From Pseudomonadota bacterium (lineage in GTDB: Bacteria > Pseudomonadota > Gammaproteobacteria > Acidiferrobacterales > UBA6901), in NCBI GenBank assembly GCA_021819085.1, contig JAKASJ010000022.1:1-57755 (forward strand): a stretch of 57,755 nt of DNA. The letters run 5' to 3'. The notes below the pieces were generated by a model. The model was not told where the DNA came from, made no database searches, and saw nothing but the letters and a program-made list of their open reading frames with translations. A program made the translations under genes and the position numbers. Below, one piece after another: positions 6,881 to 18,062 of this stretch. Every line of letters begins with the position of its first letter. Position 1 is the stretch's first letter.

Positions 6881-8764
6881 ATGACGATCCGTTCCAGAAC
6901 CAGGTTCATTGCCGCCTATCTCGCGCTGCTTGCGATGTGGTTGGCGGTCGCGACGTTCTCCGCCACGCGTGCCGCGCGCACCGCGGTTGCCGCGCTTTCT
7001 GCGGGCATCTTCACGGTTCTGGCGGCACTCGGCTTCCGCATGCTACCGCGTCCTGCCGGCCAGGCACAGCAGCGCAGGCTTGCACTGTTCCCGGAACGCA
7101 ATCCGGATCCGGTACTGGCCCTGTCTGCGGACGGACAGGTGATCTACTCCAACGCCGGCGCCAGGGAAATGCTGAAGGATCTGGGCGGCAAGGAGGAAGA
7201 CATCCACGAACTGCTGCCGACGGATGTGCGACAGCGCCTCGAGGCCGTGCGCGCCCTGCCCTCTGCCACACAGGTCTGGGAGTACCCCAAGAGCAATCAC
7301 GTACTTGCCTGCAGCATCCACTTTCTCGCCGACCAGGACGAATTTCACGCTTATATCACCGACATCACCCGTCACAGCCGCGTCGAGGCACGGCTGTCGC
7401 ACCAGGCACACCACGACACTCTGACCGGACTGCCCAACCGCAGACAGTTCCAGGAGCGCATCGAGCAGGTGCTGGCGGCGAGCGCCGGCGGCCGGCGCCT
7501 GGCGGTGATCCTGATGGATCTGGACCGATTCAACGTCATCACACGCAGTCTTGGTCACGGCGTTGGTGACGGCCTGCTGCAGGCGGTAACCGCACGCCTT
7601 GAGCACCTGCTCGTCGAGGAGCGGGCCATGAGTGCCGATGCGACGCTTTACCGCTTCGAGGCGGATGTGTTCGCCATCCTCGTTCCCGGATTCACCGAGC
7701 CCCAGATCCCGCTGCATCTGGCGGAGCGGATGCTTGCCGGCATACAGCTGCCGCTGTATGTGAACACACGCGAATATTTCGTCACCTTCAGTATCGGCGT
7801 CAGCATCTATCCGGTCGACGGCGAAGACGGCATCTCGCTGCTGCGCAATGCCGACACGGCAATGCAGCGGGCCAAGCAGCTTGGTGGAAACAATCTCCAG
7901 GCCTATTCCCAGGAAATGAATGCGCGCGCCGCCGAGTCTCTGTCACTCGAAAATTACCTGCGGCACGCCATGGAGCACAACGAGCTGCGCCTGCATTTCC
8001 AGCCGGAAATCGACACGCGCAGCGGGCAAATCACCGGCGTCGAAGTTCTGCTGCGCTGGACGCATCCGGAGCGTGGGGTAATCATGCCTTCCGAGTTCAT
8101 CCCGCTCGCGGAGGAAACCGGCATGATCGTTCCGATCGGGGAATGGACGTTGCGGGCTGCGTGCGCGCAAAGCAAGGCATGGAGCAGTGCGGGACTTGCG
8201 GCGCTAACCATGGCCGTGAACATTTCCGCGCGCCAGTTCCATCAGCAGGATCTTCCGGGTCTCGTAAGACGCATTCTGCAGGAAACCGGTCTTGATCCGC
8301 AAATGCTCGAGCTCGAGATCACTGAAGGCGTGGCCATGCAGGACGTCGAACACACACGCGCCACGCTCAGGCAGCTGAAAGACATAGGAGTCCGGCTGTC
8401 CATCGATGACTTCGGAACCGGATTTTCGTCGCTCAACTATCTGCGTCGTTTCCCGATAGACCGGCTCAAGATCGACCAGTCGTTCGTGCACAACCTCACC
8501 AGCGACGAGAATGATGCCGCCGTTACCCGCGCGATCATCGGACTCGCCCACAGCCTGAGGCTGAAAGTGATCGCTGAGGGAGTCGAAACCCCTGAGCAGC
8601 TCGTCCGGTTGCGCCGTGAGGGCTGCGACATGGTACAGGGCTACTACATGTACCGGCCGCTCAGCGCATCGGCGCTGGAAGAAGTTCTGCATGCGAAGCC
8701 TGCGCCATGGATGACACGAATCGATCCACAGCGGGCACCTGCTAACAGGCGCCCAGGTTCATAA
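6881..8764 (+). CDS. Membrane PAS-GGDEF-EAL protein, probably a c-di-GMP phosphodiesterase
   Basis: This 627-residue protein has two N-terminal hydrophobic segments (about 9-27 and 34-52), a PAS-like domain (about 77-165), a GGDEF domain (about 175-345) and an EAL domain (about 360-605). The cyclase motif is degenerate: EADVF occupies the place of GGDEF, so synthesis is unlikely. The EAL domain keeps the main catalytic features: EVLLRW (EVL in place of EAL), LEITEG, IDDFGTG, LKIDQSFV and VIAEGVET. The protein is therefore predicted to degrade c-di-GMP at the membrane, with the dead GGDEF possibly serving as a GTP sensor. It is divergent from the ABC exporter. The start codon lacks a strong ribosome binding site. 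Confidence 0.9.
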   Translation: MTIRSRTRFIAAYLALLAMWLAVATFSATRAARTAVAALSAGIFTVLAALGFRMLPRPAGQAQQRRLALFPERNPDPVLALSADGQVIYSNAGAREMLKDLGGKEEDIHELLPTDVRQRLEAVRALPSATQVWEYPKSNHVLACSIHFLADQDEFHAYITDITRHSRVEARLSHQAHHDTLTGLPNRRQFQERIEQVLAASAGGRRLAVILMDLDRFNVITRSLGHGVGDGLLQAVTARLEHLLVEERAMSADATLYRFEADVFAILVPGFTEPQIPLHLAERMLAGIQLPLYVNTREYFVTFSIGVSIYPVDGEDGISLLRNADTAMQRAKQLGGNNLQAYSQEMNARAAESLSLENYLRHAMEHNELRLHFQPEIDTRSGQITGVEVLLRWTHPERGVIMPSEFIPLAEETGMIVPIGEWTLRAACAQSKAWSSAGLAALTMAVNISARQFHQQDLPGLVRRILQETGLDPQMLELEITEGVAMQDVEHTRATLRQLKDIGVRLSIDDFGTGFSSLNYLRRFPIDRLKIDQSFVHNLTSDENDAAVTRAIIGLAHSLRLKVIAEGVETPEQLVRLRREGCDMVQGYYMYRPLSASALEEVLHAKPAPWMTRIDPQRAPANRRPGS

Positions 8765-12904: not shown

Positions 12905-14062
12905 TCAGTCCATGCGCGCAAGACTTTCCTTGATGGATTTCAGCTCCTGCCCGATCTCAAGCGCAAATTTCGCATTACAGAATTCAAGCAGTGGGATGGC
13001 GCTCACAGCAAGCTGCAGCGCGTATGGCTCAAGCTGTCCGATTTCATTACGCGCAAGCAGCCTCAGGGCCTCGTCGAGACCGGGCTGCTCGATGACCGCT
13101 TCTTCGATCCGATGAACATCCGAATCGTCGCCGACACAGCTGCGGTCTCCGGCGGAAGCAGCCATCTTCAGGCGCTTGTAGGCCAGACTATGCAGCTCCT
13201 CCACGGAGCCACCGGGATCATGACCCGAAGAGACCAGGCCGAGACTGATAGTCACGGCTGCCTCTATTCCATCGTGCCTGAATGGCTGCGACGAAACTGC
13301 CGCGCGCAGGCGCTCGCACAGCATCGCTGCCTCCAGCCGCCCGAGAGACAGGGTCATGACGGAAAATTCCGAACTCCCGGTACGCGATATCAGGTCTCCC
13401 TTGCGGGTCTTCGTCCGCAGCAGATCGGCGATCCAGATCAGCACGTGGTCCGCATACTCGTCTCCGTTCCGGGCACGCAGCGATATGAAATCATCGACGC
13501 TCAGGCGCAGAACCGAAACCGGACTCTCGGTCGCGAGCGCCGCGGCCAGAATCTCCCGGCCGCGTTCGAGGAAGCGACGGCGGTTATCAAGGCGGGTTAG
13601 GCTGTCGATATGGGACTGGTCGCCCAGCGATGCAGCTGTTGCCGCTACGTCGGCGGCTTCCTGATCAGACTGGGCCAGATTGCGGACACAGGCCAGCAGC
13701 TGAACCGAATCGATCGGCTTGGTGATAAAGTCGTTTGCTCCGCAGGCATAGGCACGCTCACGGGTGATATCGTCTTCTGCACCGGTGATGACGACTACCG
13801 GTACCCCGCTGATGCGCGATTCGTCGGCTGCGCGAATTCGGCAAATCAGTGAGTACCCGTCAAGTTTCGGCATCATCACGTCGCTGATGACGACCTGAAT
13901 GCGGTTATCTCGTCGCAATCTCTCCCAGCCGGACTCACCGTCCTCCGACTCGACGAGATCGAACTCCTGACTGAGAACGCGCTGAACAGCCACACGCATA
14001 AGGCGTGAGTCGTCCACCACCAGGACCCGCGTCTTTTCCGCCTCTCTCTCGCCCGTCTGCAT
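12905..14062 (-). CDS. Response regulator with REC and degenerate GGDEF (GSSEF) domain, intact I-site
   Basis: This is a 385-residue protein. The REC domain (about 10-130) has the acidic pair VVDDS, phospho-acceptor D61 in ISDVMMPKLDG, T93 in VITGA and K115 in ITKPID, so it should be phosphorylated. The GGDEF domain (about 150-290) has GSSEF at 229-233 in place of GGDEF and should not make c-di-GMP. The allosteric I-site RxxD is present as RKGD at 220-223, at the normal five-residue distance. A helical C-terminal extension of about 95 residues follows. No histidine kinase is adjacent. ATG 14062 has GGAAG about six bases upstream. It is divergent from the stressosome-like cassette. Confidence 0.85.
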   Translation of the reverse strand: MQTGEREAEKTRVLVVDDSRLMRVAVQRVLSQEFDLVESEDGESGWERLRRDNRIQVVISDVMMPKLDGYSLICRIRAADESRISGVPVVVITGAEDDITRERAYACGANDFITKPIDSVQLLACVRNLAQSDQEAADVAATAASLGDQSHIDSLTRLDNRRRFLERGREILAAALATESPVSVLRLSVDDFISLRARNGDEYADHVLIWIADLLRTKTRKGDLISRTGSSEFSVMTLSLGRLEAAMLCERLRAAVSSQPFRHDGIEAAVTISLGLVSSGHDPGGSVEELHSLAYKRLKMAASAGDRSCVGDDSDVHRIEEAVIEQPGLDEALRLLARNEIGQLEPYALQLAVSAIPLLEFCNAKFALEIGQELKSIKESLARMD

Positions 14063-14727
14063 AGTCTTCTTCCGCAAAACTTCGCCGCCGGCGTCTGTCC
14101 ATCCGGCACACTGCCAGCGCCCTGACCACCGTAAACCGGCGTCGACCCTTCACAAAAGGTAGCATAAAGTGTGCCAAATGCCCGGATAGGGACGCTAACT
14201 GGGCACCGATCTGACAGCACTCAGACGCCGAAAAGCCCCTTCGCCGGGCAAACGCAACGCACTGGCCGCTGACGGGATTCCGTGCGATGGCGAGCCAGTA
14301 CTGTTCGCCTGCTGCCCTGCCATTGTCTTCAAGCCAGATCGCGGTCATACGCCCGCAGACAGGGTCGCGAAGACCAGCGCTACAGGCAGCGGAATAAAGA
14401 GCGTGCGGCGCATGCGCCACCTGGGTATAAATCGCGGACATGCCAGCGCGGCTTGTCTGCCTGAATCGCCCCTATCCCACGGCAACCTGCCGTCGCGGTG
14501 GCTAGAATGACTCCCGTTCTTAAGCAACGCGTCATCCGCCCCGCATGGCATGGGGATTGCATATAACTTTACTGAAAATCTCCATGAAGCGGCCGTAATG
14601 AATCAAGGACAAGCGGCCATGCCATTACAGCAGTTTTTGCCTTCCGGTTCGGTACCGAACCCGCTGCGGGTTGCTCCCTGCACCCCGAATGCAGCCGGCT
14701 GTGGTGACGCACAAGCCGGAAGAGAAT
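14063..14727. other. Divergent regulatory gap between response regulator and stressosome cassette
   Basis: This 665-base region should hold the promoters of both the minus-strand response regulator and the plus-strand cassette. On the plus strand, TATAACT at 14571-14577 is a possible -10 box for the cassette, without a clear -35. A minus-strand frame (13935-14441) runs through part of it but overlaps the response-regulator gene and shows no recognisable domain. No repeats or RNA genes were found. Confidence 0.4.
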
Positions 14728-15684
14728 GTGGCCAATGACATGAAACAGCTGCTCAGCCTGACGATCATGATCGAGCCGGACCGCCGGCGTCTTGCGCAGT
14801 TTGCGATCGATGCCGTGCAGGCCGCTGGCGGCAACGTCTTTGCGGCGGCAGTCTCGCTGGACGCAATCCTGAACGATCTGCGCGGGGCGGGAACGGGCGC
14901 GATCGAACCGTCACATGCCGAGTTGTCGGTCGATGACGACCGTATGTACCTCACCTGGAACGGACACCGAGAGCTCCTGAGCCCTCTTCCGGAAAGACTC
15001 TCCGAAGTGGAATTGAACAAGCTTGGCGAGCAATTTCGCCGTGCCGGGGAATCGACCGACCCGGAGCTTCTGCGCCGGCGCAACCAGGAGATCAGCGCGG
15101 AGCTGGAACGCGCCAAGGTACGCGCGGCAACCGAAATGGCCGGACTCGAAGCAGCACTCGACCGGAAAAAAGCCGAACTCCGGGAATCGATACGCGTGGC
15201 CGAAACGGACAGCCTGACCGGACTGATGAACCGCGGCGCCTATGACGCCCGGCTGCGCGAGGCGGTAGCGCGCTGCCAGCGGCAACACGAGAAGCTGTGT
15301 CTGATCCTGCTCGATCTGGACAAGTTCAAGGAAATCAACGACACACATGGCCATCAATTCGGAGACGAATATCTAAAGCGCATGGCCGCGGCCATGCGCG
15401 CATCCGTACGCGAAAACGTCGACCTTCCCTGCCGTACGGGCGGAGACGAATTCGCCATCATCCTGTTTGCCGACATGGCGATTGCGCGGCTCGCCTCGCA
15501 ACGGATCCTCGAAAGAATGGAAGACCGTACCAGCATCGGCATCGCCGAACTGCAAAATCCGGACAATGCCACATCGCTTGTGGCCCGTGCCGATGCCGCC
15601 CTTTACGAAGCAAAGCGCCAGGGACGCGGTCGCTGCGTGGATTCCGATTCAATGATGCCTAAGGCGATCCGGGGGGGAGCTTGA
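14728..15684 (+). CDS. Diguanylate cyclase (GGDEF), first gene of stressosome-like cassette
   Basis: This 318-residue protein has an N-terminal domain of about 110 residues that I do not recognise, a charged coiled coil (about 110-155, rich in ELERAKVRA and KKAELRES) and a GGDEF domain (about 158-310). The active motif is intact, RTGGDEFAII with GGDEF at 238-242, and substrate-side features LDLDKFKEINDTHGH are present. The inhibitory I-site is missing (ENVD where RxxD would be), so product inhibition by that route is unlikely. GTG 14728 is preceded by GGAAGAG; upstream in-frame TTG 14671 and ATG 14689 lack a good site. The stop overlaps the TTG start of the kinase/phosphatase gene, which ties it to the cassette as probable output enzyme. 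Confidence 0.88.
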   Translation: MANDMKQLLSLTIMIEPDRRRLAQFAIDAVQAAGGNVFAAAVSLDAILNDLRGAGTGAIEPSHAELSVDDDRMYLTWNGHRELLSPLPERLSEVELNKLGEQFRRAGESTDPELLRRRNQEISAELERAKVRAATEMAGLEAALDRKKAELRESIRVAETDSLTGLMNRGAYDARLREAVARCQRQHEKLCLILLDLDKFKEINDTHGHQFGDEYLKRMAAAMRASVRENVDLPCRTGGDEFAIILFADMAIARLASQRILERMEDRTSIGIAELQNPDNATSLVARADAALYEAKRQGRGRCVDSDSMMPKAIRGGA

Positions 15685-16736
15685 ACGACGCGCAGATGGC
15701 CTCGACGCCGGTCCGCATGCTCGTAGAGCAGAGCGTCAAAAGCGAGAGCGGACAGGTACTCCTGCGCTCCAAGCTGCGCGCCGTTTCCCGCCGCATGGGA
15801 TTCCCCCAGATCGCGCGTGAACGCATGGAGCTGGTTTGCAATGAAATGGTCACCAACCAGATGAAGTTCGCCAATGGCAGCGGTCTGGTGCAGGTGTGGG
15901 AAATGCACGTGCCGCAGCCGGCGCTCGATATATTCGCGCTGGATTACGGCCCGGGCATTCCCGACCTGGAACGCGCGCTGCGCGACGGCTTCACGACAGC
16001 TAATACGCTCGGAAAGGGTCTGGGCGCCATAAACCGGCTCGCACACGAGAGTGCAATCTACTCGGTGCCGCACGCGAATGCCGCGGAGCTACCGTGGCAC
16101 GGGACGGCAATTTGGGCGCGTTTCAACACCATTGAGTCCAAGCCCGCCCAGTCGCCGATACCGCAATACGGTATCTGTCTGCGCGCCTACCAGGACAGCC
16201 TGTTCAACGGCGATGCGCTTGCCGTGACCACCAACCGTACGCAGACGCGATGGCTGCACGTGGACGGTCTCGGTCACGGGCAGGAAGCTGCCGAGGCAGT
16301 ACGGGGCGCCGACAGCGTCCTGCGCGAAAGTGCCTCTCTGGACACACTGATGAAGTCTCTTGACCGGCGGCTCAGTGGCTCGCGCGGGGCTGTGGGTCTG
16401 CTGTGCGAGTCCGATCATGCGCAGAACACGCTGGCCTTCACAGGCGTCGGAGACATGAGTGCCTATCTGATCTGCAACGGAGAGCGGCGCAGTATCACGT
16501 TTCCGCCGGGCATTCTGGGCCACGACCATCGAAACCCGCACGTCGAATCGCTGCAGTTTCCGCCGCAGGCCCTGTTCCTGACGAGCTCCGACGGCCTGCG
16601 CAGAAACTGGACGCTGCGGTCATTTCCGGGATTGTGGAGGCTGCACCCGCAGCTCATTGCCTTCGTTCTCTCCCAGGTAACAAGCCGCGGCAACGACGAC
16701 CGGTCGCTGTTCGTGATCCGAACCGCGCCAAATTGA
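15681..16736 (+). CDS. RsbT-like kinase fused to RsbX-like phosphatase
   Basis: The 351-residue protein has two halves. Residues 10-150 match RsbT-type switch kinases (HATPase/GHKL): N-box NEMVTN at 54-59, DYGPGIPD at 88-95, LGKGLG at 110-115. Residues 165-350 match an RsbX/SpoIIE PP2C phosphatase: NGDAL about 177, VDGLGHG 194-200, GVGDMSA 255-261, SSDGL 302-306 and a final RGNDDRSLFV. In stressosomes RsbT phosphorylates RsbR and RsbS and is released to act on a partner, and RsbX resets the complex; here both activities are in one chain. It starts at TTG 15681, overlapping the cyclase stop, with GGGGGGGAG directly upstream. The partner is probably the cyclase, by coupling. Confidence 0.85.
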   Translation: MNDAQMASTPVRMLVEQSVKSESGQVLLRSKLRAVSRRMGFPQIARERMELVCNEMVTNQMKFANGSGLVQVWEMHVPQPALDIFALDYGPGIPDLERALRDGFTTANTLGKGLGAINRLAHESAIYSVPHANAAELPWHGTAIWARFNTIESKPAQSPIPQYGICLRAYQDSLFNGDALAVTTNRTQTRWLHVDGLGHGQEAAEAVRGADSVLRESASLDTLMKSLDRRLSGSRGAVGLLCESDHAQNTLAFTGVGDMSAYLICNGERRSITFPPGILGHDHRNPHVESLQFPPQALFLTSSDGLRRNWTLRSFPGLWRLHPQLIAFVLSQVTSRGNDDRSLFVIRTAPN

Positions 16737-16746
16737 GGACACTTCC

Positions 16747-17625
16747 ATGACGACACCGGCACCCGCCCGACGCCCGACCAATCAAATTCTGATCGACCTG
16801 CTCATGCTCAACGTCGGGAAGATTTCGACCATCATCGAGCAGCAGGGTCATAGCATATTCGGACAGTCCAACCTGCTGACCAAGGAGGAGATCAACGACT
16901 ACAGTCTCGAATTCCTCGAACTCGTGGTCATGCTTCTCCAGTCCGGAACCCACCTGGATCGGCGCAGTGCCGAGTTCAGCGCGCTGCGCAAGTTCTTTAC
17001 GACTTTTTCCCAGCAGATCCAGGCACGCGGCGGCAATCTCGACGAGTTCGTACGCTACATTCAGTTCCTGCAACGTGTCTTCCTCGACAACCTGGAGGGC
17101 GATGCCACTGTCGATTTTGCCCAGTCGCGCGAGATCCTGCTGTTGCTCGGATCCATTTTCAACGACATCATACTGGATGTCTTCCACGTCTACCTCGAAG
17201 AGAAGGAGCGCACCATCCAGGCACAGCAGGAGGAATTGCGCCAGACGTCGACTCCGATAACCGAGATCTGGGACGGAGTGCTGACCCTGCCGATCATCGG
17301 CACCCTGGACTCCACGCGCACCATGATGGTAATGGAGCACCTGCTGTCTCGAATCGAGGCGGAAAGGGCCAGGGTGGTCGTCATCGACGTTACCGGAGTA
17401 ATGGCCATCGACTCGCAGGTTTCACATCATCTTATTCAGATGATTCGCGCTGTGGGGTTAATGGGGGCCGACGCCGTGCTCACCGGTATCCGCCCGGAGA
17501 TCGCACGATCCCTGACCAGTCTGAACATTGACCTCGGCGAGGTCACGACGCGTGCGACCCTGTCAGAGGGCCTGAAAGAAGCGTTCCGCCGGCTGCGGGT
17601 GGAAGTCCGCCAGGGTAACGGCTAG
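16747..17625 (+). CDS. RsbR-like stressosome scaffold with C-terminal STAS domain
   Basis: This is a 292-residue protein. Residues 1-150 are all-helical and form the sensory turret expected of RsbR paralogues (globin-like or RsbRD_N-like; I cannot tell which). H35 and H69 are present, but heme binding cannot be judged by eye. A linker helix (about 148-168) leads to a STAS domain (about 175-285: LPIIGTLDSTR, VVIDVTGVMAIDSQVSHHLIQ, TGIRPEIARSLTSLNIDL). The two B. subtilis RsbR phosphorylation positions, T171 and T205, correspond to S189 and S223, with the 34-residue spacing preserved. GAGG precedes the ATG. It lies ten bases after the kinase/phosphatase gene. Confidence 0.87.
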   Translation: MTTPAPARRPTNQILIDLLMLNVGKISTIIEQQGHSIFGQSNLLTKEEINDYSLEFLELVVMLLQSGTHLDRRSAEFSALRKFFTTFSQQIQARGGNLDEFVRYIQFLQRVFLDNLEGDATVDFAQSREILLLLGSIFNDIILDVFHVYLEEKERTIQAQQEELRQTSTPITEIWDGVLTLPIIGTLDSTRTMMVMEHLLSRIEAERARVVVIDVTGVMAIDSQVSHHLIQMIRAVGLMGADAVLTGIRPEIARSLTSLNIDLGEVTTRATLSEGLKEAFRRLRVEVRQGNG

Positions 17626-17672
17626 GGCGTCCCGACCCTCATCGCCCAGTCCGTGATCCGCATCAAACTCCC

Positions 17673-18062
17673 ATGATACCCGGAATACATCTCACTCCTA
17701 TCGGCGACGACAGCGTGCTGCTGGAGCCTGGCGACGGCCTGGACCCGACCGACCCAAACGCCTATCTCGTGCCGCTGCTCGCGTTTCTACAGAAAAAACG
17801 AGCGCGTTTTCTGATCTACGACCTCAAGAACGTGGCTCTGATCGACCGCGTATACTACGAGTGGATGACCGCCATGAATTCGCTTTGCCTGATATCGGGC
17901 ATCCGAATGGTCGTGGCAAATATCCGACCGTACGCCGCCTTTGCGCTATCACAACTGATAAGCGATGACCCGCCATTTGCCTGCGCACTGGACGTCGACA
18001 GTGCGCGCCAGGCCATTCTGCGTCTTGCCGGATCGGATACCGGGGCTGGCACCAACCCATAG
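17673..18062 (+). CDS. RsbS-like single-domain STAS protein lacking the phospho-acceptor Ser
   Basis: This 129-residue protein is a single STAS domain and last gene of the cassette, 47 bases after rsbR-like. Its core (FLIYDLKNVALIDRVYYEW, ISGIRMVVANIRPYAAFAL) aligns with RsbS (VVIDLTSVDMIDSFI) without gaps. Residue 59 is Arg where B. subtilis RsbS carries the phosphorylated Ser59. If the alignment is right, this scaffold cannot be phosphorylated there by the RsbT-like kinase, so switching would rest on the RsbR-like protein. No second RsbS-like gene is seen in the window. The distant sequence leaves some room for another STAS role. Confidence 0.78.
   Translation: MIPGIHLTPIGDDSVLLEPGDGLDPTDPNAYLVPLLAFLQKKRARFLIYDLKNVALIDRVYYEWMTAMNSLCLISGIRMVVANIRPYAAFALSQLISDDPPFACALDVDSARQAILRLAGSDTGAGTNP

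Follow-up and report, generated by a model that had tools for sequence, protein, structure and literature searches.

Stressosome control of cyclic dimeric GMP (c-di-GMP) formation and control of diguanylate cyclases by STAS proteins are both known in kind (PMC12143880, PMC4976288, PMC8457831, PMC9237108). In some rsbRSTX gene clusters, c-di-GMP proteins have been proposed as outputs (PMC9237108). For Moorella thermoacetica, control of a GGDEF protein by RsbT via an RsbU_N domain is reported (PMC12143880, PMC4976288). The STAS-like protein SiaC binds the stalk of the cyclase SiaD, and HsbD and BgrR are likewise under the control of STAS proteins (PMC8457831). Here we describe a four-gene module on contig JAKASJ010000022.1 of the gammaproteobacterial assembly GCA_021819085.1 (Acidiferrobacterales, UBA6901), of which the whole stretch of 57,755 nucleotides was analyzed and is referred to as the window. 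We give an even chance to the reading that this module encodes a rewired stressosome in which a diguanylate cyclase docks on an RsbR/RsbS platform via a dead kinase domain and phosphorylation of RsbR by a fused kinase-phosphatase, TX, is the switch. Gene order, domain make-up, kept and lost residues and the linkage of the N-terminal cyclase domain were read from sequence, while the fold of that domain is a predicted one. The four genes are:

14728-15684, + strand: DGC, GGDEF diguanylate cyclase of 318 amino acids (GGDEF domain, E 1.7e-36), with a GTG start and an alternative ATG at 14740
15681-16736, + strand: TX, RsbT-RsbX fusion (kinase/phosphatase) of 351 amino acids, with HATPase_c_2 and SpoIIE over the Pfam cut-off
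16747-17625, + strand: RsbR-like protein of 292 amino acids, with an RsbRD_N-type helical N-domain and a STAS domain (E 1.4e-14)
17673-18062, + strand: RsbS-like single STAS protein of 129 amino acids (profile against solved chains: RsbS, E 1.9e-5)

An earlier note on this DNA had placed four genes on the plus strand at this position, and their arrangement was borne out: the TTG start of TX overlaps the TGA stop of DGC (TTGA), TX is followed after 10 bases by the gene for the RsbR-like protein, and another 47 bases separate the latter from the gene for the RsbS-like protein. In several relatives of DGC the residue matching ATG 14740 is the start. That a stressosome-type STAS/kinase/phosphatase cassette is linked here to a diguanylate cyclase, as the note had also proposed, is supported by the domain make-up and by the conserved gene order.

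This order was examined by scanning contigs, one genome per species, with an alignment of TX, the neighbourhood search which the note had named as a check. It yielded 77 loci besides the window. All four genes were recognized by profile at 68 of these, and in every one of the 68 they follow the order DGC-TX-R-S on one strand; at each of the nine incomplete loci a contig end lies at or next to the module. The recurrence of this order is more than chance. The note had found two features distinctive, the position of the cyclase gene at the front and a kinase fused to a phosphatase. The former is conserved. R-S-T-type clusters, too, contain full-length fusions (loci L054, L055 and L179), and a fused kinase-phosphatase is thus not unique to DGC-TX-R-S. 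A fifth conserved gene was not found, the commonest flanking clusters reaching only 12 of the 77 loci, and the module therefore ends with its four genes. Within the order to which the window belongs, TX matches at E 0.001 are present in 19 of 57 genomes, and the neighbourhoods reveal DGC-TX-R-S in the genus of the window as well as in other genera; R-S-T-X modules also occur there. A genus, family or order name is available for 42 of the 77 loci: Gallionella (9), Gallionellaceae or Gallionellales (8), Thiobacillus (7), Sulfuricella (6), Sideroxydans (4), the Hydrogenophilus group (3), Sulfuricaulis (2), and Thioalkalivibrio, Acidiferrobacteraceae and Nitrosomonadales with one each. The remaining 35 bear broad taxonomic labels. 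Many of the carriers belong to sulfur- and iron-oxidizing lineages.

The two STAS proteins are assigned with different ease. The RsbR-like protein scores 54.2 bits against the Pfam STAS family, its relatives match STAS in 44 of 44 and RsbRD_N in 36 of 44 cases, and its best solved relatives are stressosome RsbR proteins (E 8.6e-31). The RsbS-like protein alone stays below the Pfam cut-off (STAS, E 0.16), STAS is found at E 0.1 in 42 of 55 relatives, and for a profile built from these 55 the top three solved chains are all RsbS (E 1.9e-5 to 2.6e-5). In Bacillus subtilis, phosphorylation of RsbS at Ser59 releases RsbT (PMC6760441), and activating mutations of RsbR lose their effect once S59A is introduced (PMC9237128). 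The corresponding positions in the module, taken for RsbR from an alignment with solved RsbR and for the RsbS-like protein from a HMMER alignment against Listeria RsbS, are:

17847-17849, + strand: codon of Arg59 at the position of the RsbS phospho-serine, flanked by the near-invariant patch ID-x-VYY-x-W
17311-17313, + strand: codon of RsbR Ser189, first phospho-site position (LDS.R), Ser in 72 of 72 rows
17413-17415, + strand: codon of RsbR Ser223, second phospho-site position (IDSQV), Ser in 69 and Thr in 3 of 72 rows

Among 71 RsbS-like proteins the residue at the phospho-site is P in 30, Q in 10, E in 8, R in 6, T in 5, G and S in 3 each, N and A in 2 each, and K and L in one each, and the surrounding patch is kept almost without exception (Y61 and W64 in 70 of 71 rows each). 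Canonical RsbS proteins from the same class served as a control and carry Ser at this site in 11 of 11 cases; they stem from 13 blast matches, of which L155 and L032 were dropped as they comprised the RsbR linker and the start of STAS. The set excludes open reading frames (ORFs) of at least 200 amino acids, repeats identical over their final 60 residues, and L179. The RsbS-like protein of the window thus lacks the conserved phospho-serine and is not a standard RsbS switch; with this residue lost, most members of the module cannot use the classical release switch. What weighs against a general loss is that eight of the 71 proteins do possess S or T at the site. Two genomes carry a DGC-TX-R-S module together with an R-S-T-X module whose RsbS has the Ser (G041 with loci L047 and L057, G043 with L045 and L059), so that two versions of the stressosome exist side by side in one genome.

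The Pfam scores of TX are just over the cut-offs (SpoIIE 28.7 bits, HATPase_c_2 27.9 bits), and among solved chains its profile finds SpoIIE-like 3zt9 (E 1.9e-18) and RsbX 3w40 (E 8.6e-10). Its two halves are:

15762-16070, + strand: RsbT-like kinase half with conserved N-box (E55/N59), D88-G90-G92 and G111-G113-G115
16167-16718, + strand: RsbX-like PP2C phosphatase half with conserved D178, D195, D304 and D340

Every one of these kinase and phosphatase residues is kept in between 76 and 78 of the 78 rows, and the RsbT-type ATP site is intact (ExxxN 77/78, DxGxG 77/78, GxGxG 78/78). In the window, no STAS or SpoIIE match was found beyond the four module genes. The statement that RsbU and RsbV are lacking accordingly holds for the window but may not extend to the genome, where a further SpoIIE match and a pair of further STAS matches lie elsewhere. 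Like the rsbRSTX clusters of Gram-negative bacteria such as Vibrio vulnificus, the module combines RsbR and RsbS STAS proteins with RsbT kinase and RsbX phosphatase domains and has no sigma-B cascade; it differs in its order (output-TX-R-S instead of R-S-T-X-output), in having no separate RsbT, in the lost RsbS phospho-serine, in an RsbR N-domain of RsbRD_N type instead of a globin, and in a cyclase N-domain that is not RsbU_N (PMC9237108).

The intact RsbT-like domain of TX brings to mind the stressosome of M. thermoacetica and its RsbU_N-GAF-GGDEF cyclase, where stressosome proteins likewise control a GGDEF enzyme (PMC12143880, PMC4976288). By analogy, the RsbT half of TX would be released from the stressosome and engage the cyclase N-domain in the way RsbT engages RsbU_N, thereby switching the GGDEF domain on. 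We regard this as unlikely. The RsbS phospho-serine needed for release of RsbT is missing, and the receptor in Moorella is the helical N-terminal domain of RsbU, while the N-domain of the window cyclase is predicted to be a kinase-like alpha/beta domain and not an all-helical bundle. RsbU_N has no match at E 0.1 in the window cyclase and is not among the 25 of 46 Pfam families listed for 55 cyclase relatives, each of the 21 further families matching at most one member. The proposal in the earlier note that the RsbT half is the partner of the cyclase N-domain thus lost ground: because the cyclase shows no RsbU_N and its N-domain itself looks like a degenerate domain of RsbT/RsbW type, the STAS platform is the more likely partner.

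The domain at issue is defined as follows:

14740-15093, + strand: module-specific N-domain of DGC (residues 5-122), predicted b-a-a-b-b-b-a arrangement like partner-switching kinases without ATP motifs

No Pfam family matches residues 5-122 of the window cyclase beyond weak coiled-coil hits. The N-domain is present in 14 of 370 genomes of the class, and in all 14 the cyclase gene is followed directly by that for TX, with both on one strand of a single contig. These are the very genomes with TX matches below E 1e-80; ten others hold weaker matches to the TX profile, among them G050 with a full-length fusion in another cluster type. A scan of 397 genomes across the phylum detected the N-domain in the window genome, in a further member of the class with TX next to it (G588) and, weakly, in one member of another class (G519, E 3.0e-4 per genome). 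AlphaFold2 (AF2) modelled the protein with a predicted local distance difference test (pLDDT) score of 92 for the whole cyclase and 82 for the N-domain alone. When 998 chains were realigned with VIA-align, ranks 1 to 7 were RsbW (Z 8.8 and 8.4), UsfX (7.0), SpoIIAB (6.9, 6.8 and 6.5) and SiaB (6.4), all of them partner-switching kinases whose structures were determined together with a STAS or STAS-like protein, chain identities being partly read from residue numbering. The root mean square deviation (rmsd) is 2.0 over 81-82 residues for the top RsbW pair and 2.0-2.5 over 80-83 residues for all seven; LvrC (Z 5.7) and a designed protein (Z 5.4) follow at ranks 8 and 9. The ATP motifs themselves are gone: helix-2 ExxxN and DxGxG each occur in one of 67 rows (67 of the 72 N-domain stretches in the DGC alignment were used for these counts), and so the domain is not a kinase even if it is related to kinases.

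The only off-module match to the N-domain profile, that in G519, is not to a cyclase but to the RsbT-like N-terminal domain of a histidine kinase. This kinase has 412 residues with HisKA_2 and HATPase domains and is encoded in fifth place in an R-S-T-TX-kinase cluster (L179). In a search of 550 ORFs, the same stretch of this protein was matched by the TX-kinase profile (residues 38-159, E 7.3e-9) and by the N-domain profile (residues 32-96, E 2.9e-5). The alignment covers the first strand, the first helix and the N-box helix; it places cyclase Arg52 (71 of 76 rows) on the Arg of the EAARN motif of the kinase, the Glu and Asn of which are not kept. Taken together, the cyclase N-domain looks like a degenerate RsbT/RsbW-type domain, as judged from its predicted fold.

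Several observations weigh against this assignment. Foldseek returned no significant match for the N-domain; a galectin-related protein was best (E 0.13) and an RsbW chain took rank 45 (E 0.54). Since these E-values are not significant, the structural alignment taken alone is no more than suggestive, and VIA-align Z scores below about 8 can reflect a common arrangement. A GxGxG string occurs in 17 of 67 N-domains; in the rows inspected, it is part of the loop that follows helix 2. When the N-domain profile was compared with profiles of the kinase half of TX, of a set of 24 RsbT domains or of the RsbT domains of output proteins, nothing significant emerged and controls scored equally well (E 0.16-0.79, controls 0.06-0.93), and a search with the N-domain profile among the sequences of solved chains recovered no GHKL chain and nothing else of relevance. 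Adding the L179 domain for a second profile round brought up no further RsbT domains among the 550 ORFs, and comparison with viral models gave nothing significant (best, an uncharacterized cedratvirus protein, E 0.015). Sequence support for a kinase-type origin thus consists of one weak match, that in G519, which leaves some room for the view that the N-domain is an independent ligand or dimerization domain and that the genes are merely co-transcribed, with the cyclase outside the control of the STAS platform. We deem this very improbable in view of the one-to-one linkage between N-domain and TX (14/14) and of a gene order that is fixed at 68 of 68 loci while flanking genes are common to no more than 12 of 77.

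The remainder of the cyclase consists of:

15061-15204, + strand: stalk helix, residues 112-159 (48 residues), from N-domain to GGDEF domain, according to AF2 secondary structure
15199-15630, + strand: GGDEF domain (Pfam 125.9 bits) with RxxxD in place of the canonical RxxD inhibitory site

None of the 76 cyclase rows deviates from the GGDEF letters, in agreement with the intact motif reported earlier, and c-di-GMP, suggested then as the output, is likely to be so. The canonical RxxD inhibitory site is absent from all 76 cyclases; 73 have RxxxD instead (residues 228-232 in DGC), and product inhibition by c-di-GMP may therefore differ. At the beginning of the stalk, D111, L115, R118 and N119 are conserved. 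A fold search with the whole cyclase is filled by GGDEF structures and uninformative for the N-domain; its best match is SiaD, covering stalk and GGDEF domain (E 9.3e-17). Together with the binding of SiaC to the SiaD stalk, this match and the conserved stalk start speak for a mechanism in which one STAS protein, most likely the non-phosphorylatable RsbS-like one, binds directly to the stalk and activates the cyclase, the N-domain being a secondary oligomerization piece. As in SiaABCD, HsbA/HsbD and BgrV/BgrR, a kinase, a phosphatase and STAS-type proteins would act on a stalk-helix cyclase; those systems employ a single STAS-type switch, whereas the module pairs RsbR with RsbS, joins kinase and phosphatase in one protein and carries a predicted kinase-like domain on its cyclase (PMC8457831). 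Control through the stalk in the manner of SiaC appears rather improbable to us, as it leaves unexplained why the N-domain is exclusive to the module and why its predicted fold is kinase-like, and as the RsbS-like protein resembles RsbS and not SiaC: neither STAS protein matches DUF1987 (SiaC) in Pfam, both match STAS, and their best solved chains are RsbS and RsbR.

We therefore return to docking of the cyclase on the STAS platform. RsbR and the non-phosphorylatable RsbS-like protein would co-assemble via their STAS domains, and TX would write and erase phosphate on both conserved RsbR serines. The cyclase would dock on the STAS surface through its N-domain, a degenerate fold of RsbT/RsbW type that lacks an ATP site, and would thereby either compete or cooperate with the active kinase half of TX. 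The SpoIIAA/SpoIIAB complex has served as a template for docking RsbT on RsbR and RsbS (PMC9237128), and the likeness of the predicted N-domain to SpoIIAB and RsbW suggests a STAS protein as its most natural partner. A stress signal could enter at the RsbRD_N-type domain of RsbR and be read out as RsbR phosphorylation, which would alter docking of the cyclase; the change might be passed on via the stalk helix to the pairing of GGDEF domains and thus to c-di-GMP synthesis. The RsbS-like protein, non-phosphorylatable in most members, would offer a constant docking surface with the aromatic VYY-x-W where a kinase would act. Either STAS protein may bind the cyclase, and the effect may be activation or inhibition.

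Output proteins with RsbT-type domains were also seen outside this module. Three outputs of this kind were seen in 14 loci examined, each a histidine kinase with its own RsbT-like N-domain:

L054, 8432-10600: output histidine kinase
L055, 242-2608: output histidine kinase
L179, 6883-8121: output histidine kinase

The kinases at L054 and L055 have a clear, full N-terminal HATPase_c_2 domain and are encoded behind TX. These R-S-T-TX clusters resemble the module in that an RsbT-type domain, a probable one in the cyclase, is fused directly to an output protein encoded beside TX; they differ in that the output is a HisKA/HWE kinase, that a separate RsbT is kept and that RsbS has the Ser where it was seen (L055). 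An RsbT-like domain on output kinases possibly provides a direct route from stressosome to output. Tentatively, and at somewhat less than an even chance, we propose that the pseudo-RsbT on the cyclase is a docking module on a platform with non-phosphorylatable RsbS, and that RsbT-type domains may serve generally as the plug with which kinases, phosphatases and outputs vie for sites on the STAS platform. If true, this would replace the picture of RsbT being released toward a distant target; such plugs would be active in TX and some output histidine kinases and dead in the cyclase.

Some observations concern the surroundings of the module. A gene for a PilT/PilU-type pilus ATPase (TIGR01420; for example L090:8324-9496) lies downstream on the same strand at six of the 77 loci, at a median distance of 83 bases, a possible hint at twitching motility. 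In the window, a REC-GGDEF response regulator is encoded divergently to the module (12905-14077, - strand; Pfam E 4.8e-23 and 1.6e-22), and similar genes lie upstream of the module at L060, L061 and L062. About 6 kb upstream a GGDEF-EAL protein is encoded (6881-8764, + strand), which brings the contig to three GGDEF genes; the window genome (3.42 Mb) has 37 GGDEF matches. A link to autotrophy was considered and set aside: PF00016, the RuBisCO family, which may include RuBisCO-like proteins, is present in 14 of 14 module genomes and in 184 of 356 others (Fisher p 1.4e-4), but with carriers that share ancestry and a marker that is widespread in the class it counts as a correlate only.

As far as the open-licence literature shows, three things are new: DGC-TX-R-S as a conserved module, an RsbS that has lost its switch residue, and the probable pseudo-RsbT on the cyclase; no module of this kind was found described in open-licence papers, and a description elsewhere is possible. 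The module is a compact, conserved four-protein system with a built-in output enzyme, a single fused kinase-phosphatase and a natural loss of the RsbS switch residue. These features make it possible to test whether an output docks directly on the platform. The module is also a candidate link between stress sensing and c-di-GMP in its host lineages, sulfur- and iron-oxidizers among them.

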